38,812 nt of DNA from a virus. The notes under the pieces were generated by a model. The model was given only the letters and a program-made list of their open reading frames with translations, was not told the origin of the DNA and did not search any database. Shown in pieces: positions 3,290 to 35,265 of this stretch; position 1 is the stretch's first letter; each line of letters begins with the position of its first letter. The stretch lies in the IMG/VR virus record IMGVR_UViG_3300042691_014235, positions 1-38,812 of that record, one strand, 5' to 3'. The translations under genes and the position numbers were made by a program.

Positions 3290-3328
3290 ATGAGTACGTT
3301 ATTAGTCTTACAGCTTGGACATATATGA
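3290..3328 (+). CDS. possible 12-codon leader ORF coupled to the next gene
   Basis: ATG at 3290 follows a weak GGCGGA and is followed by 12 sense codons. The TGA at 3326-3328 overlaps the ATG of the next gene (ATGA at 3325-3328). That gene has only a weak ribosome binding site of its own (TTGGA), so coupled re-initiation is plausible. It is short enough to be chance. Confidence 0.25.
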   Translation: MSTLLVLQLGHI

Positions 3329-3729
3329 AAATTACAGAACTATTCAATAATACATCAAAGAGCATAGATGATGAACTTGAGCTAGATAAAATTGGGCTGA
3401 ATAAAAAGACCAATGATCATAGCTCAGCAGATGACGAATATTCATTCGATCTTGCTGAAGACATTATCTATTTCATGCACAACAACGATGATTTTTATCG
3501 TAAAAAATTCTTTCCTATATTAAACTTATGTAAGAAACAGTTTGATCAAGGTCAATCATTTTCGCACAGAGTGTTTAAACCAGTTGTTACAAAAGCGTAT
3601 AGCATATACAAAGACGAATTCCCATTAAGAGAACTTAGAGACGAATTAGATAAAGAAATGATTGAAGAAATTTGTAAGAAAATTCACGAATCTGAGATGA
3701 CGAATATGCGTGAAGGGGCTTACAAATGA
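3325..3729 (+). CDS. unknown protein with capsid-targeting-like N-terminus
   Basis: A 134-residue acidic, mostly helical-looking protein of unknown function. Its first residues (MKITELF) match the opening of neighbouring proteins that start MRLRELFE, MRLRELL and MRLWEIL. This resembles the short N-terminal capsid-targeting sequence of T4 internal proteins (MKT-x-x-EF type), which prohead protease removes. Its stop overlaps the next start (ATGA), which ties it to the nucleotidyltransferase gene. The role as virion cargo or as a partner of the next protein is inference. Confidence 0.7.
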   Translation: MKITELFNNTSKSIDDELELDKIGLNKKTNDHSSADDEYSFDLAEDIIYFMHNNDDFYRKKFFPILNLCKKQFDQGQSFSHRVFKPVVTKAYSIYKDEFPLRELRDELDKEMIEEICKKIHESEMTNMREGAYK

Positions 3730-4601
3730 TTTTAAACGAAGGCGGCAACATTTGGCCTGAGAGTACTGATTACGAACAAACTGTTGAAATGATTGACGGT
3801 TTAGTTCAAACCACTGAAGAGTTTGTCAGTGAAATTGGTCTAAAGATTCATGTCATTGGTAGTAGTGCTACGCCTACGCAAAATGCTTATTTAGGTGGTG
3901 AGCTTATTGGTATCTACAGAGAGCGTGAACAAAAGTTTGTTCCAGTTAAAGCATACGCAGACAAATACAACACTGGAGAATTACCACAAGGTGTTGAACT
4001 AAAACCAAAAAGATCTGGCGACTTAGACGTTATGGCAGATTTAAATGATGCTGCTAGATTCTTTAAGACTAAAGATGGAAAAACAACACGTCAAGCGTTA
4101 GATGATTTCTTAAAAGAAAAAGGTTTAAAAACCCACAAAGCTGGTGTAACAGTTCATACACTCATTCCTTATGGTGAAGGTTTTTATCAAGTGGACATTA
4201 AAATTGTTCCTAAAGCAGAAATTGTAAGTAGATTTCATCACCACGCTATCCCACCAGGCAGTCCATACAAAGGTGTTAATAAACAAATGATGATTAATAC
4301 ACTTGCTAGCAGTGGAGGATTTTTGTGGAGTCCAGACGAAGGTCTTTACAAACGCGATGCTGCTGGTAAGAAGGCAGAGTTTATTAGTGATGATTTAAAT
4401 GTTATTGCTCAAACGTTACTTGGACCAAACGCAAATGCAGATAGTTTGGGCAGTGTTGAAAGTATAATGGATGCTATTCCAGACGAAGCAAAACGTAATG
4501 AAATTTTCGACAAGGCAAAGGCATCTAGCAGTTGGCAAGCCGCAACTCCCACAGTCGGTACTAACGAATGGTTTAGTCGCACACTAAGGATGTTGAAATG
4601 A
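3726..4601 (+). CDS. pol beta-type nucleotidyltransferase
   Basis: The 291-residue protein shows the polymerase-beta nucleotidyltransferase signature: a GSS turn at 45-47, the metal-binding pair in SGDLDVM (Asp99 and Asp101), and a third acidic strand in QVDIKIV (Asp157). About 50 residues separate GSS from the DxD, longer than the usual dozen, so an insertion is present. The family moves a nucleotidyl group onto RNA, DNA, protein or small molecules; the substrate cannot be read from the sequence. The gene overlaps both neighbours by four bases (ATGA). Its start MILNEGGN differs from the MRLRELF type, so if it enters the capsid it may do so through the preceding small protein (inference). Confidence 0.7.
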   Translation: MILNEGGNIWPESTDYEQTVEMIDGLVQTTEEFVSEIGLKIHVIGSSATPTQNAYLGGELIGIYREREQKFVPVKAYADKYNTGELPQGVELKPKRSGDLDVMADLNDAARFFKTKDGKTTRQALDDFLKEKGLKTHKAGVTVHTLIPYGEGFYQVDIKIVPKAEIVSRFHHHAIPPGSPYKGVNKQMMINTLASSGGFLWSPDEGLYKRDAAGKKAEFISDDLNVIAQTLLGPNANADSLGSVESIMDAIPDEAKRNEIFDKAKASSSWQAATPTVGTNEWFSRTLRMLK

Positions 4602-5749
4602 GATTAAGAGAACTATTTGAAGCAGCTCCACCCAAAGTAGGTCGTAAGTATCAACACATTGAAGACTTGGCGTTTACTAACGGCAGTAACGGAGCGCACC
4701 ATGCAGTTGAACGTTTACGTAGCATGGGCAAACAATCTGGTTCAATTGAATTAAAGTGGGACGGCAGTCCAGTTGTATACTGGGGTCGTGATGAGGATGG
4801 TGTTTTCCGTTTATTTCCTAAAAATGCGTGGGATTATTTGAAGCGTGGTACAACACAGACCAAGAGCGGTGTTAGTACTGAAATGAATAGTCCAGAAGAC
4901 ATTAGAAATTTTATTTTAGGTACTGGTAATACAGAACCTGGTAAAGAAAAACAACGCCAAAACTATGCTAATCAAATGGCAAGTTTGTGGAGTTACTTTG
5001 AAAAAATTAGTCCAGAGGTTGGATATATTGAAGGTGGTATTTTATTTCATCCTGGACAACCAGCAAAATTAAATCCCAAAACAGGCGATTACGATTTTAC
5101 ACCAAACATTACTAGTTTTCATATTCCAGCAGATAGTGACTTGGGTAAAAGAATTAGAACTGCAAAAGTTATGGTGGCAGCAACTGGCTATTACGAAACA
5201 ATGGGAACTAGCGATGAAACACGTTATCCCAACGCAGAAGAATTAAGTACACCAGACGTTATTGTGCAAGGCACAACTTATGTTGAAGAAGCTCCAGATG
5301 TTGATGATAGTGAGTTAGATCAAATTGAGCAATACATTGATGCAAATGCAGATGCTATTGATGCCTTTTTAGCACCCAAGCCAGGACTAAGCAAAGTGGG
5401 TGATATATTATATACATTCTTTAATCAAAATTTACGTGTAGCTGGAGTTAAAAATAAATTTCAGTCTTGGATTAAGAATCAAGTAGCAGCTAAAAAGATG
5501 TCGGCAGCTATGGCACAAAAAGTTTTATCTGATCCAGGATTAGATGCAGTTCTAACCACTGTGGAGATGATAACTGCTGCTAAGATGAATTTAATTACTG
5601 CATTAGGTGCAGGCACACATAGCGGCATTAAGCAAACTAAACCTGAAGGTTATGTTCAGGCCCATCCAGGCGGAGAATTTAAACGTGATGTTCCAGGACA
5701 GTTTGTTAAGGCAATTGACCAAGCTAACTGGGCTCCAAGGAAAGACTAA
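4598..5749 (+). CDS. ATP-dependent ligase-like covalent nucleotidyltransferase
   Basis: The 383-residue protein begins MRLRELFEAAPP, the capsid-targeting-like peptide with a likely protease site after Glu8. It then has a ligase-type motif I, LKWDGS, with candidate nucleotide-accepting Lys53, a glutamate-containing strand YIEGGILF (motif III-like), and near the C-terminus PEGYV followed by GGEFKRDVPGQFVKA, which fits motifs IV and V. These are the marks of the DNA/RNA ligase and capping enzyme superfamily. No OB-fold or zinc finger is obvious. The substrate (DNA nick, RNA end) is not predictable. It overlaps the nucleotidyltransferase gene upstream (ATGA) and the HxGH-type gene downstream (TAATG). 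Confidence 0.6.
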   Translation: MRLRELFEAAPPKVGRKYQHIEDLAFTNGSNGAHHAVERLRSMGKQSGSIELKWDGSPVVYWGRDEDGVFRLFPKNAWDYLKRGTTQTKSGVSTEMNSPEDIRNFILGTGNTEPGKEKQRQNYANQMASLWSYFEKISPEVGYIEGGILFHPGQPAKLNPKTGDYDFTPNITSFHIPADSDLGKRIRTAKVMVAATGYYETMGTSDETRYPNAEELSTPDVIVQGTTYVEEAPDVDDSELDQIEQYIDANADAIDAFLAPKPGLSKVGDILYTFFNQNLRVAGVKNKFQSWIKNQVAAKKMSAAMAQKVLSDPGLDAVLTTVEMITAAKMNLITALGAGTHSGIKQTKPEGYVQAHPGGEFKRDVPGQFVKAIDQANWAPRKD

Positions 5750-6777
5750 TGAGATTACGTGAACTATTGATAGAGAATTTAGACCGTACTGGCGAAAGTA
5801 AAAACGCAGTTGTAGGCTGGGGCCGTGGCATGGGGCACAAAGGTCACATGATGCTGGCCAGTAGCGTTTTAACACAGGCAAAAGATGATGGTGCCGATCC
5901 ATATTTTGTAATCAGCAAAACAATGGGCAAAGATGATCCGTTAAGTCCTGATGAAAAATTAGACATTTACAATCAAGTATTTCCAAATAATCCCAAAGTG
6001 TTCAACACAGCAACTGATGAAATGCCTGACTTGAATAGAGTACTTAAAAAGTTAGCTACTATGGGCTATGGTAATGTTACTGTAGTTGTTGGTGCTGACC
6101 AGGTTAATGCATTCCAATACCTAGTACGTCCAGACAAGTCTGGAGTTGAACCGTATAAGCAGTTTGGTTTAGATGATTTAAAAGTAATTGCACGTCAAGA
6201 AACTAATGATCCAAGCAGAGAAGAGGAAGGTCCACGTGCTACACCTATGCGTCAAGCATTGTTAGACCCCAACATGAGCGATGAGGAAAAGTTTCAAGTA
6301 TGGCGTGATTCAATGAATCCAGAAATTGACGATGAAAAAGTCAAACAACTAATGCAAACTGCATTACAGCGTATGCAAGACTTTGCAAAACCCAAAGTAA
6401 GAGTAAAGAAAGACAAAATGGCAGCAGAAAACTCTCGTAACCCAGACTTAATGAGTCCAAGCGATTATGATCGCTATCAACAAAATCAAATGGACTATGA
6501 AAAACGTGATTTCAAACGTCGTGAAATGGAACATGAACTAGGACACGAAGATGAATGGCAACGCCAGCAAGATTCTAAACCAGTAGTAGTAGGTAGGTAT
6601 TTTTATAACGTGCCAGCTGGCAGAGAAGACGAAGCAGCCAGCTACGGAATCAAACAAACTAAGAGTGGTAAATGGTCTAAGGCAAAATATAATAAGAGCG
6701 GACGCACATGGGGATTCCAAAAAGATCTTGCAGATAAAGCATTTGGTAATGGAAGATACTGGGAACCAAAAAAATAA
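5749..6777 (+). CDS. HxGH-type nucleotidylyltransferase (NMNAT/cytidylyltransferase-like)
   Basis: A 342-residue protein opening MRLRELLIENL, the same N-terminal peptide as its neighbours. After it comes a Rossmann-like strand and GMGHKGHMML (residues 28-37), a version of the GxFxPxHxGH nucleotide-binding motif. Further on are a VVVGADQV strand and RATPMRQAL, in the place of the ISSTxIR phosphate-binding motif. The family adenylylates or cytidylylates phosphorylated small molecules such as nicotinamide mononucleotide. The C-terminal third (from about 215) is highly charged and basic, looks disordered, and ends in a G/W/K-rich tail that could bind nucleic acid. A role in NAD metabolism is possible but unproven. 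Confidence 0.65.
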   Translation: MRLRELLIENLDRTGESKNAVVGWGRGMGHKGHMMLASSVLTQAKDDGADPYFVISKTMGKDDPLSPDEKLDIYNQVFPNNPKVFNTATDEMPDLNRVLKKLATMGYGNVTVVVGADQVNAFQYLVRPDKSGVEPYKQFGLDDLKVIARQETNDPSREEEGPRATPMRQALLDPNMSDEEKFQVWRDSMNPEIDDEKVKQLMQTALQRMQDFAKPKVRVKKDKMAAENSRNPDLMSPSDYDRYQQNQMDYEKRDFKRREMEHELGHEDEWQRQQDSKPVVVGRYFYNVPAGREDEAASYGIKQTKSGKWSKAKYNKSGRTWGFQKDLADKAFGNGRYWEPKK

Positions 6778-6779
6778 TT

Positions 6780-7073
6780 ATGAAACAGTATAGGATCACT
6801 ACACAGGATTTAAACACGGATAGTAGCGATGACTGCTATCTTGATCCCAATGATCCTATACATGAACTAAAAGCACTTGCAGGTATTGGCGGAGGTTTAG
6901 GCGGGCAAGCTAAACTACAAGAATACAGAGGTATGCAAGGAAGTAATATCAGTGCAACGGGTGACAGTAAAGGAGCCCTTATGAAGAAGCATGATATTAA
7001 ACCGGGTACGCCCGAGTGGTTTAAATTGTGGTTTTCAAGACCATATCTAACTGGTGAAAAACCAATAGATTAA
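6780..7073 (+). CDS. small unknown phage protein
   Basis: 97 residues, starting two bases after the previous stop. It contains a glycine-rich stretch (GIGGGLGGQ, about 36-44) and ends in GTPEWFKLWFSRPYLTGEKP, a compact aromatic segment. No known motif or membrane span. It is the last gene before the late promoter of the endolysin and probably belongs to the upstream transcript. Confidence 0.6.
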   Translation: MKQYRITTQDLNTDSSDDCYLDPNDPIHELKALAGIGGGLGGQAKLQEYRGMQGSNISATGDSKGALMKKHDIKPGTPEWFKLWFSRPYLTGEKPID

Positions 7074-7741: not shown

Positions 7742-7981
7742 ATGAGGTTGTGGGAAATATTACAAGAAGAAGCAACTGCCGGTTCTACTAGTGCCGGCAG
7801 TATTGCTACGGTTGTTAGCCCACACTTAGCAATTGGCAATAAGAAGACGCGAAACAGGTACGGAAAGGGTGGTAAGCCAAGGCCTCCTAAAGCAAAACAA
7901 GCGAAAAACAAAGACGGAACAGCGAAAAATGCACTTGATATGAAGGGCAGTATTTTCGGCGGCAAGCCCGTAAAACGCTAA
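7742..7981 (+). CDS. small basic protein with capsid-targeting-like N-terminus
   Basis: 79 residues. It starts MRLWEILQEEA, fitting the MRLRELFE peptide of neighbouring genes with a probable protease site at the Glu-Ala step. The rest is strongly basic (Lys/Arg-rich from about 37 to 79), with no acidic cluster. This is what one expects of a small internal protein packed against DNA, like T4 internal proteins. The function is inferred from composition and context only. Its stop codon is embedded in the next late promoter motif. Confidence 0.65.
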   Translation: MRLWEILQEEATAGSTSAGSIATVVSPHLAIGNKKTRNRYGKGGKPRPPKAKQAKNKDGTAKNALDMKGSIFGGKPVKR

Positions 7982-12847: not shown

Positions 12848-12926
12848 TAAATATTGCTAGGAAAGGTCGGCGGGCCATAAACCGCAACATGGGTGTTTGT
12901 CAGCCGCAAATGACATAAGGAGAGAT
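12847..12926 (+). promoter_or_regulatory. leader of the DNA polymerase gene
   Basis: The 80 bases between the dsbA-like stop and the polymerase ATG hold ATAAATA (12847-12853), a GC-rich stretch with short complementary arms (CGGC 12868-12871, GCCG 12903-12906), and AAGGAGAG as ribosome binding site. In T4 the gp43 mRNA leader carries a hairpin operator for autorepression. The position suits that role, but I see no convincing long stem. Confidence 0.3.
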
Positions 12927-15593
12927 ATGAGCTATGTAGACGCATGGTTCGACAGAGACAATGACGTTGTCAAAGTTGTCGAACGCAATAAAGACGGCAA
13001 GAGGGAATTTAAAGATATCCCGGCCCGTTACTCATTTTACTACGATGATGCAAGAGGAAAACACCAAAGTATACACGGTACTCCAGTTAGCAAAGTTGTT
13101 TGTAAAACACAAAAAGATTTCCGCAAGGAAATGGCAATCCACTCCAACAAGAAACTATACGAAGCAGATATTAACCAAGTATTTGTATGTTTGAGTGAGA
13201 ATTATATCAATGCCGAACCACCAAAGCTACACGTAGCATGGTTCGACATTGAGGTGGACTTTGATCCAGAAAGAGGCTACGCAAGTCCAGATGATGCGTT
13301 TATGCCAATTACTGCGATTGCTGTTCACCTACAATGGTTAGATACAATGGTTTGTTTAGCAGTGCCTCCAAAGACAATGACAATGGAGCAGGCTAAAGAA
13401 TCAATCAAAGACATTCCAGACACTATGCTGTTTGAAACAGAAGCAGAAATGTTAGACACATTCTTAGATATCATTCAAGATGCAGACATTTTAAGTGGCT
13501 GGAACAGCGAGGGATTTGATATCCCGTACACCGTTAATCGTGTGACCAAAACTCTAAGCAAAGAAGACACTAGACGTTTTTGTTTGTTTAATCAATTCCC
13601 AAAACGCAGAGAGTATGAGAAGTTTGGAAAAAGTGCTGTAACTTATGATCTCATTGGTCGTGTACACTTGGACAGTTTAGAATTGTATCGCAAATACACA
13701 TATGAAGAACGTCACACATATAGACTAGATGCTATTGGTGAAATCGAAGTTGGTGAAAACAAAGTTCCATATGAAGGAACTTTGGATCAACTTTATAATC
13801 ATGATTTCCGCAAGTTTATTGAATACAACAGACAAGATACTGCCTTGTTGGACAAGATGGATAAGAAGTTAAAGTTTATGGATCTTGCCAATACACTGGC
13901 ACACGAAAACACAGTATTGTTACAAACAATTATGGGTGCTGTGGCTGTTACTGAACAGGCCATTATCAACGAGGCACATCGTAGAGGCATGGTTGTACCC
14001 AATCGTGTTAAGATGGCTGAACGTGAAAATACTGCGGCAGCTGGTGCGTATGTTGCACATCCAAAAGAAGGCTTGCAAGATTGGATCGGCTCACTGGATA
14101 TTAATTCACTGTATCCGTCTGCAATTCGTGCGCTTAATATGGGACCAGAAACTATTGTTGGGCAGTTACGTCAAACAATGACACAAAACTATATTGACAG
14201 TTTAATGGCCAAAGGTAAAAGTTTTGCTGGTAGTTGGGAAGGCGTGTTTGCGGCTTTGGAATATACCGCAGTAATGAATCAAGAAGTAGGCACCGAAATT
14301 ACAATTGATTGGGAAAACGGAGACAGTGATGTACTAAGTGCTGCCGAAGTTTATAGACTAATTTTTGAAAGTAAACAGCCTTGGGTGCTGAGTGCAAATG
14401 GTACAATCTTCACTTACGAAAAAGAAGGTATTATTCCTGGCTTGTTAAAGCGGTGGTATAGTGAACGTAAGGAAATGCAAGCCAAACTAAAAGACGCTAT
14501 CAAAGCTGGTAATAAAATTGAAGAAGAATATTGGGATAAAAGACAACTGGTTAAGAAGATTAACCTAAATAGTTTATATGGTGCTATTCTTAACAGTGGT
14601 TGTAGATTCTTTGACAATCGTATTGGGCAGTCAACTACATTGACTGGACGCACCATTTGTAAACACATGGCTGGCAAGGTAAATGAAATTATTACAGGCG
14701 ATTACGACCATGTGGGTAAAGCTATTATTTACGGTGATACTGATAGTTGCTATTTCTCAGCGTATAAAACTTTGAAGAAAGATATTGATAACGGATCATT
14801 ACCATGGAGTAAAGAAACTGTTGTTTCATTATATGATCAAATTGGAGAAGAAGTAAACAGTACATTCCCACAGTTTATGCTTGACTCATTCCATTGTCCA
14901 AAGTCACGTGGAGAAGTTATCAAAGCTGGACGTGAAATTGTTGCTAGTAAAGGTTTGTTTATTACTAAGAAACGTTATGCTGTTCTTTACTATGATAAAG
15001 AAGGCAAACGTAGTGATATAGATGGCAAACCTGGTAAGATTAAAGCTATGGGTTTGGATTTGAAACGTAGTGACACTCCCGTGTTTATTCAAAACTTCTT
15101 AAGCGATGTATTGGAAAAAGTACTAACTGGTGCAACTGAAAAAGAAGTACTAGAAAATATTACTCAATTTAGAAGTGAATTTAAAGCACGTCCAGGTTGG
15201 GAGAAGGGTAGTCCCAAACGTGCTAACAACATTGCGGAATATCAAGAGAAAGAAAAGAAAGCTGGTAAAGCTAATATGCCTGGTCACGTTCGAGCAAGCA
15301 TTAACTGGAATACTCTAAAGCGTATGATGGACGACAAGTACAGTCAACAAATTGTAGACGGTATGAAAGTTATTGTTTGTAAAGTAAAACAAAATCCATT
15401 AGGGTATACTAGCGTTGCTTACCCAGTAGATGAATTGCGTTTGCCGCAATGGTTTAAAGATTTGCCTTTTGACCACGCAGAAATGGAACAATCAATTATT
15501 GATAATAAACTTGATAACTTGATTGGTGTATTGAAGTGGGACGTGCAAAGTACAGAGGAGAAGAACACGTTTAATAAACTGTTCGAATTTTAA
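12927..15593 (+). CDS. 43: family B DNA polymerase, gp43 type
   Basis: 888 residues from ATG 12927, which has AAGGAGAG just upstream; an in-frame TTG at 12897 lacks one and overlies the leader. Exonuclease motifs are intact: FDIEVD (106-111, Asp107 and Glu109), WNSEGFDIPY, and YNRQDTALLD. Polymerase motifs follow: SLDINSLYPSAI (motif A), KINLNSLYGA (motif B) and YGDTDS at 602-607 (motif C, both catalytic Asp). Length is close to T4 gp43 (898), and the order exonuclease then palm/fingers/thumb is complete with no intein or split. This is the replicative polymerase with proofreading; the gp45-like clamp lies one gene downstream. Confidence 0.97.
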   Translation: MSYVDAWFDRDNDVVKVVERNKDGKREFKDIPARYSFYYDDARGKHQSIHGTPVSKVVCKTQKDFRKEMAIHSNKKLYEADINQVFVCLSENYINAEPPKLHVAWFDIEVDFDPERGYASPDDAFMPITAIAVHLQWLDTMVCLAVPPKTMTMEQAKESIKDIPDTMLFETEAEMLDTFLDIIQDADILSGWNSEGFDIPYTVNRVTKTLSKEDTRRFCLFNQFPKRREYEKFGKSAVTYDLIGRVHLDSLELYRKYTYEERHTYRLDAIGEIEVGENKVPYEGTLDQLYNHDFRKFIEYNRQDTALLDKMDKKLKFMDLANTLAHENTVLLQTIMGAVAVTEQAIINEAHRRGMVVPNRVKMAERENTAAAGAYVAHPKEGLQDWIGSLDINSLYPSAIRALNMGPETIVGQLRQTMTQNYIDSLMAKGKSFAGSWEGVFAALEYTAVMNQEVGTEITIDWENGDSDVLSAAEVYRLIFESKQPWVLSANGTIFTYEKEGIIPGLLKRWYSERKEMQAKLKDAIKAGNKIEEEYWDKRQLVKKINLNSLYGAILNSGCRFFDNRIGQSTTLTGRTICKHMAGKVNEIITGDYDHVGKAIIYGDTDSCYFSAYKTLKKDIDNGSLPWSKETVVSLYDQIGEEVNSTFPQFMLDSFHCPKSRGEVIKAGREIVASKGLFITKKRYAVLYYDKEGKRSDIDGKPGKIKAMGLDLKRSDTPVFIQNFLSDVLEKVLTGATEKEVLENITQFRSEFKARPGWEKGSPKRANNIAEYQEKEKKAGKANMPGHVRASINWNTLKRMMDDKYSQQIVDGMKVIVCKVKQNPLGYTSVAYPVDELRLPQWFKDLPFDHAEMEQSIIDNKLDNLIGVLKWDVQSTEEKNTFNKLFEF

Positions 15594-16410: not shown

Positions 16411-17142
16411 ATGAAAAACATTTTACAAGACATCGTAGCACATACACATAGCCTAGGCTTTTTGCCAACAGTTAAAGTTTCTGGTGAGAACGGAGAAACA
16501 ACTATTGAATCAATGGCAGAAGACCGTAGCGTTATTGTTAATGCTAAAACACACAAGGTAGTTACTGAATTTGCAGGCGTATTTGGTATGCCTAACTTAG
16601 ACAAATTAGCACTACACTTGAAGAATCCAGAATATAAAGAAAACGCAAAGATTAATGTTGTTACTAGTCAACGCAACGGCGTAGATATTCCAACAAGTTT
16701 GCACTTTGAAAATGCAACTGGCGACTTTGTTAACGATTATAGATTTATGAGTACTGAAGTTATTAACGAAAAGTTAAAAAGCGTCAAGTACAAAGGCAAC
16801 GGTTGGGACATTGAATTTGAACCTTCACTGAGCTCAATCAGTCGTTTGAAATTGCAAGCGGCTGCACATACAGAAGAAAACGTGTTCCAAGTCAAAACAG
16901 ACAATGGCAATTTAGTTGTAAGTTTTGGTGATGCAAGTACACACGCTGGTAACTTTGTATTCCAACCAAATGTTGTTGGTAAATTGAAACACACATGGTC
17001 ATGGCCAATTAACGCTGTTATTAGTATTCTTAACTTAGATGGTAAGAGCACAGTACGCATTAGTGATCAAGGCGCTATGCAAATTACAGTTGATAGTGGT
17101 ATTACAGAATACAACTATATTCTTCCAGCTCAATCTAAGTAA
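16411..17142 (+). CDS. 45: DNA sliding clamp, gp45 type
   Basis: 243 residues from ATG 16411, preceded by GGAGA; an in-frame TTG at 16399 is less likely. The clamp pattern is visible: an N-terminal helix-strand start, a middle FGMPNLDKLALHL segment, a repeated second half with FVFQPNVVGKLKHTWSWPI, and a beta-rich C-terminus ending ITEYNYILPA. Length agrees with T4 gp45 (228). It would encircle DNA as a trimer for gp43 and, in T4-like phages, also activate late transcription with gp33/gp55-type factors. That fits the late promoter motifs here. The clamp loader lies outside the window. Confidence 0.85.
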   Translation: MKNILQDIVAHTHSLGFLPTVKVSGENGETTIESMAEDRSVIVNAKTHKVVTEFAGVFGMPNLDKLALHLKNPEYKENAKINVVTSQRNGVDIPTSLHFENATGDFVNDYRFMSTEVINEKLKSVKYKGNGWDIEFEPSLSSISRLKLQAAAHTEENVFQVKTDNGNLVVSFGDASTHAGNFVFQPNVVGKLKHTWSWPINAVISILNLDGKSTVRISDQGAMQITVDSGITEYNYILPAQSK

Positions 17143-18719
17143 TGAATACAAACTTAACGGCTACACAAAGCGATTACGCAAAGTTTTTGCCAGCAACGTC
17201 GACATTTTATTCGACGTTTGTTGGTAAACAACGTCATTTTAATTATGTAGACCCCACTCGTATTCCGCCATCATTTGCACACGGTGCGGAGAGTCTCAAC
17301 TATTTGGATCCAGACAAGGGTGCATTTTATTATCACTGGTGCTTGTATAGTGCTGGACATGCTAACTTAGACTTGAATAAGTTTGATCCAAAAGAGGATA
17401 TGTTCCGTAACAGAGATCGCAATACATCTTGGGTGTTAGGTGACTCTGGTGGTTTCCAAATTGGTAAAGGCAAATGGACTGGTGATTGGAAAGATCCCAA
17501 CTGTCCACGTGCAATGAAAAAGCGTAAACAAGTTTTAGCTTGGATGGATACCTTAATGGACTATGGTATGTGTCTTGATATTCCAAGTTGGACTGCTAAA
17601 AATCCAGAAAGTCCTAAACTAATCGGCATTAGCAGTTATGCTGATGCAGTTAATGGCACATATATTAATAATGATTACTTTGTTAATAATCGAAACGGCA
17701 ATTGCAAGTTCTTAAACGTATTACAAGGCGAGAATCACGGTCAAGCAGATGACTGGTATGATCGCATGAAAAAGTATTGTGATCCAAAGCAATACGGTGA
17801 TCGTGCATTTAATGGCTGGGGTATGGGTGGCCAGAACATGTGTGATGTCGAGCTTGTACTAAGACGATTAGTTGAATTACGTTTTGATGGATTGTTAGAA
17901 AAAGGTCATCAAGATTGGATGCACTTTTTAGGTACAAGTAAATTAGAATGGGCAGTATTACTTACAGATATTCAACGTGTTGTTCGCAAACATCATAACG
18001 AAAACTTTAGTATCAGCTTTGACTGTGCAAGCCCGTTCTTAGCAACTGCTAACGGACAGATTTATATTCAAACAGAAACAGAAGATCGTAAAAAATGGAC
18101 ATACAGAATGACATCAAGTGCTGATGACAAGAAGTATGCTAACGATACACGTTTGTATAAAGACGCAGTTATTCAAGATGGCATTTTAAAAGTATTTGAA
18201 TCTAGTCCCATTATTGATCAGATTAAACTCAATGAAATTTGCATTTACGGCCCAGGCGATACTAACAAGTTTGGACAAGTTAATAAAACATCGTGGGATA
18301 GTTTTAGTTATGGCATTATGATGGGTCATAATGTTTGGATGCATTTGAACGCTGTTCAAGAAGCCAACAGACAATATGATGCTGGTCGTTGCCCTAATAT
18401 GTTAGTTGACGAACGTTTTGATCAGATATTCTTTAAAGACATTGTTGAAGCATTGTTTGCTACAAGCGACAAAGGTACTGCGTTAAAAGTTATCGATGAA
18501 TTTAGATTCTTTTGGAATCGTGTTATTGGTACACGTGGCGCAAGTGGTAAGAAAGCTATCAATGCTCATACAAATTTTGAAAACTTGTTTGAGGTTGTAG
18601 AAACTGCTCCAGTTGTTGCACAACCAGTTGTTGAACATAGCGATGAATTTAGTGAAGATGAAATTAACAAACTTGATGAACTAGAAACTGAAATCGAGAA
18701 AGAAGATGACGCTACCTGA
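17142..18719 (+). CDS. dpdA: DpdA-like DNA guanine transglycosylase (TGT superfamily)
   Basis: 525 residues, starting on the clamp stop (TAATG). VLGDSGGFQIGKG (98-110) is the TGT-family substrate-binding loop with general-base Asp101. Further family elements are NVLQGENH and GWGMGG, and a candidate nucleophile Asp in SFDCASPF. The bacterial Tgt zinc site (CxCxxC with distal His) is not seen. Phage DpdA proteins exchange guanine in DNA for a 7-deazaguanine base, protecting against restriction. FolE, QueE and a QueD-like protein in the same region support DNA rather than tRNA as substrate. The last 35 residues are acidic. I am sure of the superfamily, less so of the subfamily. Confidence 0.8.
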   Translation: MNTNLTATQSDYAKFLPATSTFYSTFVGKQRHFNYVDPTRIPPSFAHGAESLNYLDPDKGAFYYHWCLYSAGHANLDLNKFDPKEDMFRNRDRNTSWVLGDSGGFQIGKGKWTGDWKDPNCPRAMKKRKQVLAWMDTLMDYGMCLDIPSWTAKNPESPKLIGISSYADAVNGTYINNDYFVNNRNGNCKFLNVLQGENHGQADDWYDRMKKYCDPKQYGDRAFNGWGMGGQNMCDVELVLRRLVELRFDGLLEKGHQDWMHFLGTSKLEWAVLLTDIQRVVRKHHNENFSISFDCASPFLATANGQIYIQTETEDRKKWTYRMTSSADDKKYANDTRLYKDAVIQDGILKVFESSPIIDQIKLNEICIYGPGDTNKFGQVNKTSWDSFSYGIMMGHNVWMHLNAVQEANRQYDAGRCPNMLVDERFDQIFFKDIVEALFATSDKGTALKVIDEFRFFWNRVIGTRGASGKKAINAHTNFENLFEVVETAPVVAQPVVEHSDEFSEDEINKLDELETEIEKEDDAT

Positions 18720-25813: not shown

Positions 25814-26584
25814 TTGACAACATTTACAACAGAAGACTTGAAGAACGCACTTACCGGTGCAGAACAACAAGGCGACGACAACAAAGATTACAAAGAAGCA
25901 TACTTAGGCGATCATATTCGTTTTAAGATGAAACGTGAAGGTAAACGTTTTTGGGCAGGTGATAACATCAGTGAATACTTGCACGAAGGTGATATAGAAA
26001 AATTAATTGACGAAGCAACACCTGCATTTGAGCAAGTGCTTGATAGTTTACTTATTGATAGAGAAAACGATCCTAATAGCAAAGGCACAGCACGTAGACT
26101 TGCTAAGATGTATTTTAACGAAATTATGGCAGGTAGATATGAATCAGCACCAGACGCAACATGTTTTCCAAATGATTCGGCGGACCGTTATGAAGGCATG
26201 CTGGTTGTTCGTAGCGAGCTTCGCAGTATGTGTAGCCATCATCACCAACCCGTTACTGGCGTTGCTTATATTGGTATTATTGCGGCTGAGAAACTCATCG
26301 GACTTAGCAAGTATACAAGGATCGCTCAGTGGTGTGCCCGTCGAGGTACTCTCCAGGAGGAACTTTGCAATGACATTGCTAGGGAAATCAGCCGAGCAAC
26401 AAATTCCAAAAACGTAGCAGTATACATTCAAGCAACACACGGTTGCTGTGAGAATCGCGGCATTATGGCACATAGTTCATTAACACAGACAACTGTACTT
26501 ACTGGTTCATTTAAAACTGATCCAGGTGCTAAGAAAGAGTTTTTTGATAACATTAAATTACAACAGGAGTTTGCCCCAAGATGA
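25814..26584 (+). CDS. folE: GTP cyclohydrolase I
   Basis: 256 residues from a TTG start supported by GGAG seven bases upstream (25803-25806); no ATG gives a complete domain. MCSHHHQPVTGVAYIGI holds the zinc Cys and His, LIGLSKYTRIAQWCARR the substrate pocket, and ATHGCCENRG the second zinc Cys with the catalytic region. Length fits family members with an N-terminal extension. It converts GTP to dihydroneopterin triphosphate, the first step to folate and to 7-deazaguanines. Paired with QueE and a DpdA-like enzyme, it serves most likely the DNA base pathway. Confidence 0.93.
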   Translation: MTTFTTEDLKNALTGAEQQGDDNKDYKEAYLGDHIRFKMKREGKRFWAGDNISEYLHEGDIEKLIDEATPAFEQVLDSLLIDRENDPNSKGTARRLAKMYFNEIMAGRYESAPDATCFPNDSADRYEGMLVVRSELRSMCSHHHQPVTGVAYIGIIAAEKLIGLSKYTRIAQWCARRGTLQEELCNDIAREISRATNSKNVAVYIQATHGCCENRGIMAHSSLTQTTVLTGSFKTDPGAKKEFFDNIKLQQEFAPR

Positions 26585-27128: not shown

Positions 27129-27514
27129 AAGCCCAAACTCCAGCAGAAGGTATTTTGAAGCAAAACGATTGGGGCGATTCAAAAGTTTATCGAGTTGCTT
27201 GCGAATGTTCTAATACAGATTGTGATCACAATGTCTGGGTAGAGTCTGATGATACAGGTATTTCTGTTAACATCTATGTTACTACTAGAACAAACTTTTG
27301 GTCAAAGTCACGCTGGACACATATTTGGACATTACTTACCAAAGGGTATATTGATACCGAATCGACTATTTGTTTGAAAGAGCAACAAGCGATTAATTAT
27401 GCTCAAACTCTTGTAACTGCATCAACAGACGTTAAAGAGTTTCGTAATACTAGACAAAATAAAGAAGAACGTGCTATAATAACAAAAATGGCAAAAGAAC
27501 AGGATTGTGTATGA
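27125..27514 (+). CDS. unknown phage protein with Cys-rich N-terminal segment
   Basis: 129 residues. VACECSNTDCDHNVWVE carries three Cys and a His and may bind a metal. The middle is strand-rich (ISVNIYVTTRTNFW, WTHIWTLLTKGYI) and the C-terminus a charged helix. Resembles conserved unknowns of cyanophages. Start and stop overlap both neighbours (ATGA). Confidence 0.6.
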   Translation: MKAQTPAEGILKQNDWGDSKVYRVACECSNTDCDHNVWVESDDTGISVNIYVTTRTNFWSKSRWTHIWTLLTKGYIDTESTICLKEQQAINYAQTLVTASTDVKEFRNTRQNKEERAIITKMAKEQDCV

Positions 27515-28377
27515 GTAAAATTAAAATAGCGGAACTGTTTTACAGTATCCAAGGTGAAGGACGCTACATGGGTGTCCCGTCTGTGTTTCTGCGTACATTT
27601 GGGTGTAACTTTAAATGCGCAGGCTTTGGCATGCCACGTGGTGAAGTCAGTCACGAAGCTACTGACATTGCGGCAACACACAAAATGATTGAGTCTTTTC
27701 AAAAGTATGAAGACTTGCCGCTTGTAAGCACAGGTTGTGACAGCTATGCATCATGGATGCCAGAGTTTAAAGATCTAAGTCCAATGTTAGAAAGTAACGC
27801 TATTGTAAATCGTATTATGGAGATACTTCCGCACAAGCGTTGGGAAGATGAGCATCTAGTTATTACAGGCGGAGAGCCGTTGTTAGGTTGGCAACGTGCT
27901 TATCCAGATTTGTTAGATCATCCTAGTATGTGGCGTCTTAGAGAAATTACTTTTGAAACAAACGGTACTCAAAAATTAACTCCAGAATTTGCTTCATATT
28001 TGCATACTTGGAAAAGTCATCATGATCAAGATTTTTGGCGTGAGATTACATTTAGTGTAAGTGCTAAACTTCCTTGTAGTGGCGAGAAGTGGGAAGAAGC
28101 AATCTGTCCTGAGATTGTATGTGAGTACGAAGAGTATGGTACAGCATATTTAAAATTTGTTATTGCTACAGAACAAGACTTTGCCGATGCAGAACGTGCT
28201 ACTGAAGAATATCGTAAAGCAGGTTTCACTGGACATGTTTATCTAATGCCAGTTGGCGGTGTAGAAAGTGTGTATGCATTAAACAATCGTAAGGTGGCCG
28301 ATCTTGCTATGAAACGTGGATGGCGTTATAGTGACAGATTACAAGTGCCACTATTTAAAAATGAGTGGGGTACCTAA
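27511..28377 (+). CDS. queE: 7-carboxy-7-deazaguanine synthase, QueE
   Basis: 288 residues from ATG 27511 (ATGA overlap). FYSIQGEGRYMGVPSVFLR is the QueE start. The iron-sulfur cluster motif is unusual: Cys32 and Cys36 are as expected, but the third Cys, in TGCDSYASW, is at 76, giving CX3CX39C with an inserted loop. LVITGGEPLLGWQ is the SAM-binding GGEP motif and FETNGT the next strand. It makes 7-carboxy-7-deazaguanine from carboxytetrahydropterin by radical SAM ring contraction. Longer than most bacterial QueE (about 210-230), mainly through this loop and a C-terminal extension. Confidence 0.9.
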   Translation: MSKIKIAELFYSIQGEGRYMGVPSVFLRTFGCNFKCAGFGMPRGEVSHEATDIAATHKMIESFQKYEDLPLVSTGCDSYASWMPEFKDLSPMLESNAIVNRIMEILPHKRWEDEHLVITGGEPLLGWQRAYPDLLDHPSMWRLREITFETNGTQKLTPEFASYLHTWKSHHDQDFWREITFSVSAKLPCSGEKWEEAICPEIVCEYEEYGTAYLKFVIATEQDFADAERATEEYRKAGFTGHVYLMPVGGVESVYALNNRKVADLAMKRGWRYSDRLQVPLFKNEWGT

Positions 28378-32927: not shown

Positions 32928-34019
32928 ATGAGCGAGATTATTTCACGTACAGTTGGCCCAAAAGCAGCCAAAAAAGCTATTAGCAAAGGATTTGCAAAAC
33001 GGCGTCCTTTGTTCCTATGGGGTCCTCCCGGTATTGGTAAATCCGATATTGTCAAGCAACTTGGCGAAGATATGGACGCTCATGTAATTGACGTTCGTTT
33101 GTCACTTTGGGAACCTACTGATATTAAAGGTATTCCATATTTTGATTCAAACGCTAACACAATGGTTTGGGCTCCCCCAGGCGAATTGCCTAGCAAAGAG
33201 TTTGCTAAAAATCACAAACAAATTATCCTGTTCATGGATGAAATGAACTCTGCTCCGCCAGCAGTACAAGCGGCAGCTTATCAACTTATTTTGAATCGTA
33301 AAGTTGGTACTTACGAACTTCCAGATAACGTTCTCATTGTTGCGGCGGGTAATCGCGAAGCAGATAAGGGTGTAACTTATCGTATGCCCGCTCCGTTGGC
33401 TAATCGCTTCTTGCATTTGGAAATGCGTGTAGACTGGGAAGACTACAGTTTTTGGGCTACAGAAAATCGTATTCATAAAGACGTTGTTGGCTTTTTGACA
33501 TTCTCTAAAAAGGACTTGTACGATTTTGATCCAAAAAGTTCAAGTCGTGCATTTGCTACTCCACGTAGCTGGACATTTGTAAGCGAATTGCTTGAAGATG
33601 ACGATACTGATGAAAACACACTGACTGACTTGATCTCTGGAGCAGTTGGTGAAGGCCTTGCTATTAAGTTTATGGCGCACCGCAAGGTTGCTAGCAAGAT
33701 GCCAAATCCAACTGATATTTTGACTGGCAAAGTTAAAAAGATGGATTCAAAAGAGATTTCTGCAATGTATTCATTAGCTGTTAGTTTGTGCTATGAACTT
33801 AAAGATTCTAGCGACAAGAATGCTAAAAATTGGAACGATCAAGTTAACTGTTTCTTTGAATTCATTATGAATAACTTTGAAACTGAATTGGTTATTATGA
33901 GTACTAAACTTGCTCTTACCCAATACAATTTGCCTCTGGATCCGGATGAGATTAAATGCTTTGATGATTTCCATGCCAAATTTGGTAAGTATATTTCGGC
34001 TGCAACGGAAAAACGTTAA
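32928..34019 (+). CDS. MoxR-type AAA+ ATPase
   Basis: 363 residues. LFLWGPPGIGKSDIV (Walker A, 32-39), ILFMDEMNSAPPAVQAAAYQL (Walker B and sensor region), VAAGNREADKG (sensor 1) and PAPLANRFLHLEM (arginine-finger region) mark the MoxR branch. The family works with VWA proteins to remodel or activate complexes, as in E. coli RavA-ViaA. The next gene encodes a VWA-like partner, which supports this call. Substrate in the phage is unknown. Confidence 0.85.
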   Translation: MSEIISRTVGPKAAKKAISKGFAKRRPLFLWGPPGIGKSDIVKQLGEDMDAHVIDVRLSLWEPTDIKGIPYFDSNANTMVWAPPGELPSKEFAKNHKQIILFMDEMNSAPPAVQAAAYQLILNRKVGTYELPDNVLIVAAGNREADKGVTYRMPAPLANRFLHLEMRVDWEDYSFWATENRIHKDVVGFLTFSKKDLYDFDPKSSSRAFATPRSWTFVSELLEDDDTDENTLTDLISGAVGEGLAIKFMAHRKVASKMPNPTDILTGKVKKMDSKEISAMYSLAVSLCYELKDSSDKNAKNWNDQVNCFFEFIMNNFETELVIMSTKLALTQYNLPLDPDEIKCFDDFHAKFGKYISAATEKR

Positions 34020-34029
34020 AATAAACCGA

Positions 34030-34058
34030 TTGACACCGCCTTCGGGCGGTGTTATAAT
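34030..34058 (+). promoter_or_regulatory. sigma70 promoter with hairpin-filled spacer
   Basis: TTGACA (34030-34035), 17-base spacer, TATAAT (34053-34058), both perfect. The spacer is almost wholly one arm and loop of a hairpin: ACACCGCC (34033-34040), loop TTCG, GGCGGTGT (34045-34052). Confidence 0.85.
34033..34052 (+). terminator. UUCG hairpin between the MoxR and VWA genes
   Basis: An 8-base perfect GC-rich stem with the extra-stable C(UUCG)G tetraloop lies 14 bases after the MoxR stop. The sequence after it is TATAATATA rather than a T run, so termination may be weak. It may protect the 3' end of the MoxR mRNA while its DNA serves as promoter spacer. Confidence 0.55.
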
Positions 34059-34086
34059 ATATACTATAGCAACTTAGGAGCAGAAC

Positions 34087-35265
34087 ATGCAACACAGTCT
34101 AGACCCCGTAGTAGACAAAATTATCGTAGCTCGTGTGGGCTTACTTCTTCGCCATCCATTTTTTGGAAATATGGCAACACGCCTTAAGGTTGTAGACGCC
34201 AGCGACTGGTGTAAAACTGCGGCAACTGATGGTCGCAATCTATTTTACAGTCGTTCGTTTTTTGAAACCCTCACTACTAAGCAAGTAGAGTTTGTCGTTG
34301 CACACGAAATTCTTCATAACGTTTTTGACCATATGGGCCGACGTGAAGGACGCGATGCACGTATTTTTAATATTGCCGCAGACTATTGTGTTAACGGACA
34401 ATTGATTCGTGACCGTATTGGAGAACAGCCTCCAGAAATTAAAATCTTTCATGATCCAAAACATTATGGTAAGAGTGCAGAACAAGTATATGACGAGATT
34501 TATGACAGCATGGACGAACAAGAACTTGCCGCATTAGGCGAGTTACTTGACGAACATATTGACTGGGAAAAAGATCCTAAAGACGGAGAAAGCCGTCCGC
34601 AATATACAAAAGAAGAACTTAAACAAATCCGTGATGAAATCCGTGAAGCTACTATGCAGGCTGCAAATGCGGCTGGTGCAGGTAATACCCCGGCCAATAT
34701 TGCACGTATGATTAAGGAACTTACAGAACCTAAAATGAATTGGCGTGAATTGTTGCGTCAACAAATTCAAAGTTTAATTAAAAACGATTACACTTTTGCA
34801 CGTCCAAGTCGCAAAGGTCAAATGTCAGGTGCTATTTTGCCTGGTATGAAATTTGACGAAACAATTGATGTTGCTATTGCTATTGACATGAGTGGTTCTA
34901 TTGGAGATGATCAAGCAAAAGACTTTATTAGTGAAGTCAAAGGCATTATGGACGAGTACAAAGACTATAAAATTAAATTATGGTGTTTTGATACCAAAGT
35001 ATATAACGAACAAGACTTTGACGGATACAGCGGTGAAGATATTCTCAATTACGAAGTTAAAGGCGGCGGCGGCACAGACTTTGATGCCAATTGGGAATAC
35101 ATGAAGAAATACGATATCAATCCTAAAAAGTTTATCATGTTTACTGATGGATATCCTTGGGACTCATGGGGTGATGAAAATTACTGCGATACGCTATTCA
35201 TTATTCACGGAAATGATTCTATTGTTCCACCATTTGGTTCTCACGCTTATTACGAGTTTAAATAA
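34087..35265 (+). CDS. VWA-domain protein with metallopeptidase-like N-terminus
   Basis: 392 residues. FVVAHEILHNVFDH contains HExxH (73-77), as in the DUF2201 putative metallopeptidase domain that often precedes a VWA-like domain. A charged linker (about 150-210) follows. The C-terminal part has the MIDAS motif DMSGS (267-271), then GGGGTDF and MFTDGYPWD, the metal-binding Thr and Asp of VWA. It is the expected partner of the MoxR ATPase. Whether the peptidase site is active is unknown. ATTTA-free leader with TTAGGAG ribosome binding site. Confidence 0.85.
   Translation: MQHSLDPVVDKIIVARVGLLLRHPFFGNMATRLKVVDASDWCKTAATDGRNLFYSRSFFETLTTKQVEFVVAHEILHNVFDHMGRREGRDARIFNIAADYCVNGQLIRDRIGEQPPEIKIFHDPKHYGKSAEQVYDEIYDSMDEQELAALGELLDEHIDWEKDPKDGESRPQYTKEELKQIRDEIREATMQAANAAGAGNTPANIARMIKELTEPKMNWRELLRQQIQSLIKNDYTFARPSRKGQMSGAILPGMKFDETIDVAIAIDMSGSIGDDQAKDFISEVKGIMDEYKDYKIKLWCFDTKVYNEQDFDGYSGEDILNYEVKGGGGTDFDANWEYMKKYDINPKKFIMFTDGYPWDSWGDENYCDTLFIIHGNDSIVPPFGSHAYYEFK

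Follow-up and report, generated by a model that had tools for sequence, protein, structure and literature searches.

Three predicted nucleotidyl-transfer genes in one run

The virus record IMGVR_UViG_3300042691_014235, a fragment of 38,812 bases (the window), carries three adjacent genes for a DNA polymerase X (pol X)- or pol beta-type nucleotidyltransferase, a ligase-type protein of the Pfam family DUF6267, and an adenylyltransferase-type protein with an HxGH motif (Table 1). The open reading frames (ORFs) overlap by ATGA at 4598-4601 and by TAATG at 5747-5751, as a preliminary description of this DNA had stated, and a further ATGA overlap joins the pol X gene to the gene in front of it. Together they make up a three-enzyme set that is conserved and has been fused repeatedly. 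We interpret this set, with a probability that we put slightly above one half, as a nucleotidyl-transfer unit that is loaded in the phage head, ejected together with the DNA, and perhaps used for nucleic acid repair.

The motifs named in the preliminary description (GSS and DLD in the pol X protein, KWDG with Lys53, PEGYV and FKRD in the ligase-type protein, and GHKGH in the HxGH protein) are all present in the window genes, and their conservation across relatives argues against chance. Among 88 distinct relatives of the pol X protein, 81 match the pattern GS..D[LIM]D and the seven others read GS...NDLD by eye; the third acid, Q[VC]D, occurs in 87. The window protein carries an insert of about 40 residues between GS and DLD, which is absent from the other 24 rows of alignment A3, and a similarly long spacing was found in 12 of 73 distinct relatives. 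Pfam, PHROGs and NCBIfam gave no family match for this protein better than E 0.098 (NCBIfam had none for any of the three window proteins). A profile search against the PDB returned nothing convincing, the best hit being a short stretch of a fatty-acid peroxygenase (E 0.0077); Tailor, a terminal uridylyltransferase, and a CD-NTase ranked lower, at E 0.5-0.7. The fold was taken from the AlphaFold model of a relative, the triple fusion L093 (43 rows), rather than from the window protein itself. The mean predicted local distance difference test score (pLDDT) of this model is 66.6; averaged by block it reaches about 90 for pol X and about 83 for the ligase, and the HxGH part is poor. Its pol X part matches pol lambda and pol beta at Z 12 (Foldseek E 1.4e-6): residues 20-213, approximately, align with pol lambda 3pnc at Z 12.2 (root-mean-square deviation, rmsd, 3.6; 176 residues aligned), and AsfvPolX of African swine fever virus (5hrf) follows at Z 11.7 (163 aligned of 178 residues). 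Its motifs and the fold predicted for this relative place the gene in the DNA polymerase X/pol beta superfamily.

The ligase-type gene matches DUF6267 (PF19782) at E 1.4e-18. KWDG is found in all 89 distinct relatives and in all 12 DUF6267 proteins of cyanophages and pelagiphages, and K53 (codon 4754-4756), D55 and G56 are invariant in the alignment. Motif III reads EGG-LF and motif IV PEGY[VA] in 84 of the 89 relatives each; motif V, [FI]K behind PEGY, was recovered by pattern in 61 and is the least conserved of the motifs described earlier (FKRD). The marine proteins show QGD[LM][LM] and PEG[YF]V in nine of 12 each, the remaining three (Syn19, P-SSM7 and ACG-2014d) retaining KWDG only. The PDB fold lists for L093 were filled by pol X-type entries, and the absence of ligases from them is uninformative. 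In a Foldseek search of a viral model library the first named ligase was the RNA ligase of phage Atu_ph07, a weak match (E 1.8e-3, rank 46). Alignment of DUF6267 by hhalign to the families of T4 Rnl1, Rnl2 and the DNA ligase gp30 gave probabilities below 5%, the sole stretch aligning with T4 Rnl1 being motif IV-V of the latter, at a non-significant level; a PDB profile search found no convincing relative (best E 0.11). From the motifs, which stand in ligase order, and the one weak fold match, DUF6267 likely has ligase-type chemistry.

The HxGH gene matches phrog_3041 (cytidyltransferase) at E 8.8e-19, and its relatives keep GHxGH (78 of 79 distinct proteins) and [AS]TP[LM]R (76 of 79). In a model of the window protein itself (20 rows, pLDDT 74.2), residues 17-208 match PPAT, NadD and NMNAT, with Z about 10 for PPAT (6b7d: Z 10.2, rmsd 3.2, 146 aligned) and for NadD (4s1o: Z 10.1, rmsd 3.6, 156 aligned). 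The Z values for PPAT and NadD/NMNAT lie within 1 of each other, so the fold does not separate these enzymes. A PDB profile search gave no convincing relative (best E 2). Motifs and predicted fold place the gene in the HIGH (HxGH) nucleotidyltransferase superfamily, with a Rossmann-type adenylyltransferase fold. The proposal of three different nucleotidyl-transfer superfamilies is therefore borne out, for two genes by predicted fold and for the ligase-type gene by ordered motifs and the weak Foldseek match; a comparison of structures suggested earlier gave the expected pol lambda/beta (in the relative's model) and PPAT/NadD/NMNAT neighbours, and for the ligase fold nothing beyond that match. 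Two relatives encode the C-terminal tail domain of the HxGH protein in a separate ORF (L016:9231-9620 and L255:7045-7419), in L255 with the start MKLRELISEM, a leader of the kind described below.

The ligase motifs bear on one alternative, in which the set repairs RNA: the pol beta-type enzyme would restore 3' nucleotides, the ligase would reseal tRNAs cut by host defence nucleases, and the HxGH enzyme would supply nicotinamide adenine dinucleotide (NAD+) or another cofactor, whether or not the proteins are packaged. The DUF6267 signature of cyanophages (KWDG, QGD[LM][LM] and PEG[YF]V) resembles, as we take it, that of RNA ligase families, and both the Atu_ph07 match and the motif IV-V stretch of Rnl1 point the same way. 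How phages use nucleotidyltransferases together with RNA ligases is a topic of PMC9503650. However, the structural neighbours of the pol domain are DNA gap-filling pol X enzymes, with CCA-adding enzymes lower (E 5.6e-4); the match to the Rnl1/Rnl2 profiles is non-significant; and a scan of ten neighbouring proteins revealed no kinase/phosphatase or 2H partner. We consider RNA repair unlikely, if by no means far-fetched.

Conserved association and fusion

A scan of IMG/VR with the ligase gene gave 283 relatives, the best 80 of which were kept. Where the ligase domain is flanked by 1000 or more bases upstream and 800 or more downstream, both partners are present at 68 of 70 loci (42 distinct ligase domains). 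The remaining two, L016 and L027, have neither a pol X match nor an HxGH match with GHxGH; their HxGH matches were to the tail domain, and L016 shows a weak match to the catalytic domain in another ORF (E 1.1e-7). The set gathered from the pol X side comprised 80 viral loci and four genome contigs, 84 in all, of which 58 had room (2000 bases downstream). Here the ligase was found in 57 of 58 and both partners in 53, the ligase only in four (genome contigs with a pol X identity of 32-33%), and neither in one. Both sets were picked by similarity, the best 80 each, and the association thus holds within the clade. The gene order clp, a 220-residue protein, a 134-residue protein, pol X, DUF6267, HxGH and a 97-residue protein is widely conserved. 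One relative that has pol X without nearby ligase or HxGH matches, L254, encodes a second pol beta-like protein at 6311-6997 (GSNAGYNYSEYSDIDLH, by eye) with the leader-like start MQFTELS.

Fusion is frequent. Of the 75 loci that have pol X, 36 encode pol X and ligase in a single ORF, and another three have a single ORF for all three domains; over all 94 records there are 38 pol X-ligase and four triple-fusion ORFs. In a tree of 52 ligase rows the fused forms group together (25 rows; support 88/80, below the starred level of the tool), and the triple fusions are a clade nested inside them (100/99, starred). A separate ligase-HxGH fusion occurs in L303/L307, and the ligase-HxGH fusion of cyanophage S-PM2 contains DUF6267 at 5-398 and CTP_transf_like at 414-554 (Pfam). 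Frequent fusion in a constant order suggests that the domains probably work together, and together with the conserved neighbourhood it gives the earlier notion of one pathway a good foundation.

The fusions also bear on a second alternative, in which the HxGH enzyme refills NAD+ or another dinucleotide against NAD-depleting host defences while the other two proteins modify host proteins or small molecules, so that nucleic acid is not the substrate. The HxGH domain is nearest by fold to NadD, NMNAT and PPAT, and the S-PM2 fusion resembles NadD in NCBIfam (TIGR00482, E 2.9e-6, below the cut-off of that model). NAD+ supply has been proposed by the authors of cyanophage proteomes (PMC10665884 and PMC9602691), and T4 Alt is a precedent for a packaged NAD enzyme (PMC9503650). 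Such a take-over would leave the fusion of pol X and ligase-type domains to HxGH unexplained, however, and the fold does not tell NadD/NMNAT from PPAT. It appears rather improbable.

Leaders, fusion junctions and the prohead protease

The genes at 3325, 4598, 5749 and 7742 of the window begin MKITELF, MRLRELF, MRLRELL and MRLWEIL, nearly the same letters as the starts of two T4 head proteins, Alt (MELITELFDED) and gp24 (MAKINELLRES). In T4 the prohead protease gp21 cleaves after L/I-X-E (reviewed in PMC9026906) and strips N-terminal peptides from the internal proteins IPI-III and from Alt, and a 10-residue peptide from gp24 (reviewed in PMC9958956). A narrow pattern drawn only from T4 Alt and gp24 matches three of the 55 window ORFs counted, which are those of the 134-residue, ligase-type and HxGH proteins. 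The same pattern matches 6 of 413, 2 of 111 and 1 of 118 ORFs in three relatives. As background, it matches 2 of 3404 internal methionines in five genomes, and among 19,100 shuffled N-termini it matches 5; any methionine in the first 40-45 residues of an ORF was allowed, which gave each more than one try. A background from the first starts of other ORFs (168 of 1843) was dropped because it recounted near-identical loci and included other leader genes of the run.

A wide pattern fitted to the window clade finds leaders on standalone ligases (34 of 44), HxGH proteins (60 of 64) and pol X-ligase fusions (37 of 39). The ten ligase misses consist of three marine phage proteins without a leader (L002, L003 and L005), six near misses such as MRAFELLFEA, and one protein with a leader downstream of a GTG start. 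In the ligase leader of the window the candidate cut lies between L-F-E and A, and a second possible one between L-R-E and L. Standalone pol X proteins have an L-x-E-type site at their start in 43 of 46 cases (two of the 46 are truncated). A leader-like start was also seen in the three relatives looked at on a protein of 80-82 residues, which adjoins a putative portal gene (by eye), lies two genes upstream of a gp21-type protease (identified by Pfam), and received no function from PHROGs. The 345-kb relative L097-L114 encodes two more leader-bearing proteins far from the trio, one of 623 residues with an ExK-like stretch and one of 136 residues with a HELVH zinc-protease-like motif (297071-298942 and 336904-337332). 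Neither has a Pfam name, and they may be further packaged enzymes.

In the fusions the inner leader is gone (0 of 73 in a junction scan) and a protease-type site remains. At 34 of 35 distinct junctions (25-residue window) the ligase domain is closely preceded by the pattern [LIV]xE[AGSN], which is found in 381 of 19,819 background windows of equal length from these proteins. As the fusions have a common ancestry, the 35 junctions are not independent. A shorter window recovered the site in 62 of 73 redundant junctions. Its spellings are INEA, VNEA, LNEA, LLEA, LAEA, LSEA, LKEA, LQEA and ITEA; such variation around a fixed pattern, despite common descent, suggests selection for a cut. At the ligase-HxGH junction the cut would fall between LQE or IQE and N in the triple fusions, and between IDE and S in the separate L303/L307 fusion. 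A gp21-type protease (PF03420) was detected in the contigs of three of eight relatives and in ten of ten cyanophages.

In a further alternative, the three proteins would be scaffold-like parts of the prohead core with secondary or inactive enzyme folds. The leader is common to a protein at the position of gp67 (position by eye), and the HxGH protein has Lys-rich tails. Key residues hardly vary in any of the three enzymes, however, and a purely structural role would not preserve them. We regard this explanation as highly improbable.

Marine relatives and virion proteomes

Sixteen marine phage loci were picked by matches to HxGH or DUF6267. All 16 have an HxGH gene or domain and 11 match the DUF6267 profile, directly before the HxGH gene in ten and fused to it in S-PM2. 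In cyanophages this pair occupies the stretch from mazG to gp61, with annotated head protein genes nearby, and is recorded as T4-GC 71 and T4-GC 190 with the annotations hypothetical protein and 'cytitidyltransferase'; no match to the pol X profile was found in the cyanophage proteins tested. In a set of 16 separate cyanophage HxGH proteins, nine begin MKx[FY]xxF[LIF]xEA, the pattern of T4 IPII/III (MKTYQEFIAEA), and three (S-BM3, S-CAM9 and S-SZBM1) have variant starts. In the whole genome of Syn19 the IP-type pattern matches one of 258 ORFs, which is the HxGH gene, and none of 761 internal methionines.

The HxGH relatives have been found in virions by mass spectrometry. This is reported for S-SCSM1 (PMC9602691), S-SZBM1 (two peptides; PMC9146016) and S-CREM2 (PMC10665884), and S-CBWM1 is cited alongside by the cyanophage proteome papers that report a virion HxGH protein. 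The HxGH protein of S-SCSM1 starts MKSFLQFLKEAAE and that of S-SZBM1 starts MRFRQFIIEAV; the S-SCSM1 record labels HxGH and its neighbours as virion proteins. The terms capsid-targeting and internal protein do not occur in the S-SCSM1 paper (PMC9602691), and a search of the open-access literature for a capsid targeting sequence in cyanophages gave only a T4 review.

Leaders, conserved sites and cyanophage proteomes are best read together as signs of head packaging, and targeting to the head with subsequent cleavage is probable for the window clade; for pol X and the ligase, packaging is what we infer. The suggestion that the set is delivered early in infection gains support from the same observations.

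Several points weigh against this interpretation, and some of them favour an alternative in which ordinary cytoplasmic repair or metabolism genes are expressed after infection and share an N-terminus as a translation or stability feature. Only one of 46 standalone pol X proteins has a leader, and the cyanophage DUF6267 proteins have none. That of S-SZBM1 (SSZBM1_141) is absent from the text and proteome table of PMC9146016; this protein lacks a leader, and its absence from the virion list thus fits the leader rule, yet gives no support to packaging of the ligase. A replication gene, the gp43-type polymerase gene at 12897, stands among the window neighbours. Against such a cytoplasmic role, the leader resembles the T4 propeptides that gp21 removes, a like leader is found on a protein beside prohead protease genes, a cleavage-type site survives at fusion junctions after the leader is lost, and an HxGH relative is found in virions, according to the published proteomes. 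On balance we deem it quite improbable.

Other points count against head packaging in their own right. The leaders contain more than one possible LxE site, the earlier one being LRE or ITE, and among the HxGH proteins only 30 of 64 have one in the first 26 residues. The comparison mixes two leader types: the T4 IP-type pattern that fits cyanophages matches none of the 55 window ORFs, and the Alt/gp24 pattern none of the 258 ORFs of Syn19. Four of the 16 separate HxGH proteins from cyanophages are short and leaderless, the S-PM2 fusion lacks both a leader and a junction site, and motif III reads EGG in the window clade versus QGD in most cyanophages. T4-like late promoters are not enriched in the window (HTAAATAY: 12 found, 19 expected; TATAAATA: 0 found, 3.6 expected). 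We know of no virion proteome from the window clade. The authors of two proteome papers caution that the enzyme might be carry-over (PMC10665884 and PMC9602691), and in the literature consulted neither pol X nor DUF6267 was found reported in a virion.

Two further observations concern the marine relatives. A fast-changing family of about 440-500 residues lies directly before the ligase/HxGH genes of several cyanophages (L161:2640-3974 and relatives, by BLAST links) and is labelled virion protein in the S-SCSM1 record. BLAST from the S-CREM1 protein also found HxGH relatives in 121Q, PBECO4, RaK2, Paride and HTVC008M, a list that takes in enterobacterial jumbo phages; HTVC008M has DUF6267, and no DUF6267 or pol X profile match was obtained among the neighbouring proteins tested of 121Q and Paride.

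Proposed mechanism and known systems

In the proposed mechanism, a leader of the T4 Alt/gp24 kind on the ligase, the HxGH protein and the fused chains would carry each enzyme into the prohead core, where the gp21-type prohead protease would then cut after [L/I]xE. In fusions the same protease may cut the conserved sites between domains and release two or three free enzymes per targeted chain within the head. After entry into the host, the enzyme set would act ahead of any phage gene expression. The chemistry suggested by the predicted folds comprises nucleotide addition, sealing and cofactor supply: the pol X enzyme may add nucleotides where gaps or ends occur, the ligase-type enzyme may adenylylate and seal these, and the HxGH enzyme may make a dinucleotide cofactor, most likely NAD+ from nicotinamide mononucleotide and ATP. 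A role in nucleic acid repair is conceivable at somewhat less than even odds, and NAD+ as the product of the HxGH enzyme is a more tentative proposal, as the modelled fold ties with PPAT. A capsid-delivered polyprotein in the strict sense, one chain of pol X, ligase and HxGH with a single leader that the prohead protease cuts at the kept [L/I]xE sites in the head, is a shade more doubtful still.

The closest parallel to such packaging is offered by the T4 head proteins IPI-III, Alt and gp24, which have a similar short N-terminal leader with [L/I]xE and whose gp21-type protease has counterparts in three of the eight relatives' contigs and in the cyanophages. They differ in their cargo, which in the window clade would consist of three nucleotidyl-transfer enzymes, often fused and with a protease-type site between the domains. 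To our knowledge, T4 packages no pol X or ligase. The T4-GC 71/T4-GC 190 pair of cyanophages resembles the set in its adjacent homologous ligase-like and HxGH genes, in their fusion in S-PM2 and in the presence of HxGH in virions; it differs in the lack of pol X among the proteins tested, the leaderless DUF6267 and the QGD of motif III. The preliminary description knew of no described system with this trio. This must be qualified, since marine T4-like phages regularly carry the ligase-like and HxGH genes as a pair; for DUF6267, and for the full set of pol X, ligase and HxGH, nothing was found in print in the open-access literature. African swine fever virus also has a small pol X-type enzyme, AsfvPolX, which works with a ligase in DNA repair (PMC5330486 and PMC6344480). 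In this animal virus the genes are separate, and the parallel between the ligases is one of putative role. We know of no HxGH partner in its repair set. Phage polyvalent proteins and packaged NAD-ADPr (ADP-ribose) enzymes likewise deliver several enzyme domains in one virion chain (PMC9503650); in the available part of that paper no pol X-ligase-HxGH set is named and the word cyanophage does not occur.

Neighbouring genes in the window

The features of the locus are listed in Table 1. Relatives of the 134-residue protein occur in 77 of the 94 records searched, mostly directly upstream of the trio. The 79-residue protein downstream does not match the T4-derived Alt/gp24 pattern. It contains an ATAGSTSAG stretch similar to one that the putative major capsid protein carries towards its N-terminus; the stretch ATAGSTSAGSIAT resembles SPTAGATSAGNVAT in that protein of three relatives, and among the ORF sets searched only these four proteins have it.

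Table 1. Features of the predicted nucleotidyl-transfer locus (positions in the window; aa, amino acids)
Feature	Position	Strand	Length (aa)	Basis
Leader-bearing protein (MKITELF...)	3325..3729	+	134	ORF; start fits T4 Alt/gp24-only pattern
Pol beta/pol X-type nucleotidyltransferase	3726..4601	+	291	ORF list; GS...DLD and QVD acids intact; fold of relative L093
Pol X N-terminus MILNE before GG	3726..3740	+		L-x-E site right behind Met; full leader would not fit
DUF6267, candidate ligase-type covalent nucleotidyltransferase	4598..5749	+	383	ORF list; KWDG, EGG-LF, PEGYV, FK; PF19782 match
Ligase-gene leader MRLRELFE before AAPPK, predicted head-targeting propeptide	4598..4621	+		comparison with T4 Alt and gp24
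HxGH (HIGH) adenylyltransferase-type enzyme	5749..6777	+	342	ORF list; GHKGH and ATPMR motifs; C-terminal tail variable
HxGH-gene leader MRLRELLIE before NLDRT, predicted propeptide	5749..5775	+		start fits T4 Alt/gp24-only pattern
Basic protein with leader MRLWEILQE, candidate internal head protein	7742..7981	+	79	leader by wide pattern only

Elsewhere in the window, a ClpA/ClpB-type ATPase is encoded at 342-2609 (phrog_4871, E 1.3e-247); 83 of the 94 records have a relative of it, as a rule ahead of the trio. A T4-type (gp43-type) DNA polymerase gene, named by eye and with relatives in the records searched, lies at 12897-15593. Three genes at 17142-18719, 25814-26584 and 27505-28377 code between them for a GTP cyclohydrolase I (Pfam E 7.4e-40), a radical SAM protein (Pfam E 1.5e-4, under the cut-off) and a 525-residue protein without a Pfam match. 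The last looks like a relative of tRNA-guanine transglycosylase, and the three would presumably be compatible with a 7-deazaguanine DNA modification. At 32928-35265, the gene of a MoxR-type AAA ATPase and, behind it, that of a DUF2201 metallopeptidase-like/VWA protein form a MoxR-VWA-type pair.

Implications for T4-like phages

If the proposed packaging is correct, T4-like phages of lakes and the sea would inject a whole nucleic acid repair set, beyond the small inhibitors and ADP-ribosyltransferase, and would use their head protease to mature enzymes from a polyprotein. Should the polyprotein reading hold as well, a ready-made kit for gap filling, sealing and cofactor making would enter the cell along with the genome. 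The recurrent detection of 'cytidylyltransferase/NMNAT' in cyanophage virions would find a mechanism, and DUF6267 would be assigned a likely chemistry. Moreover, a part of the packaged contents of uncultured phages would become predictable from a signal of ten residues.

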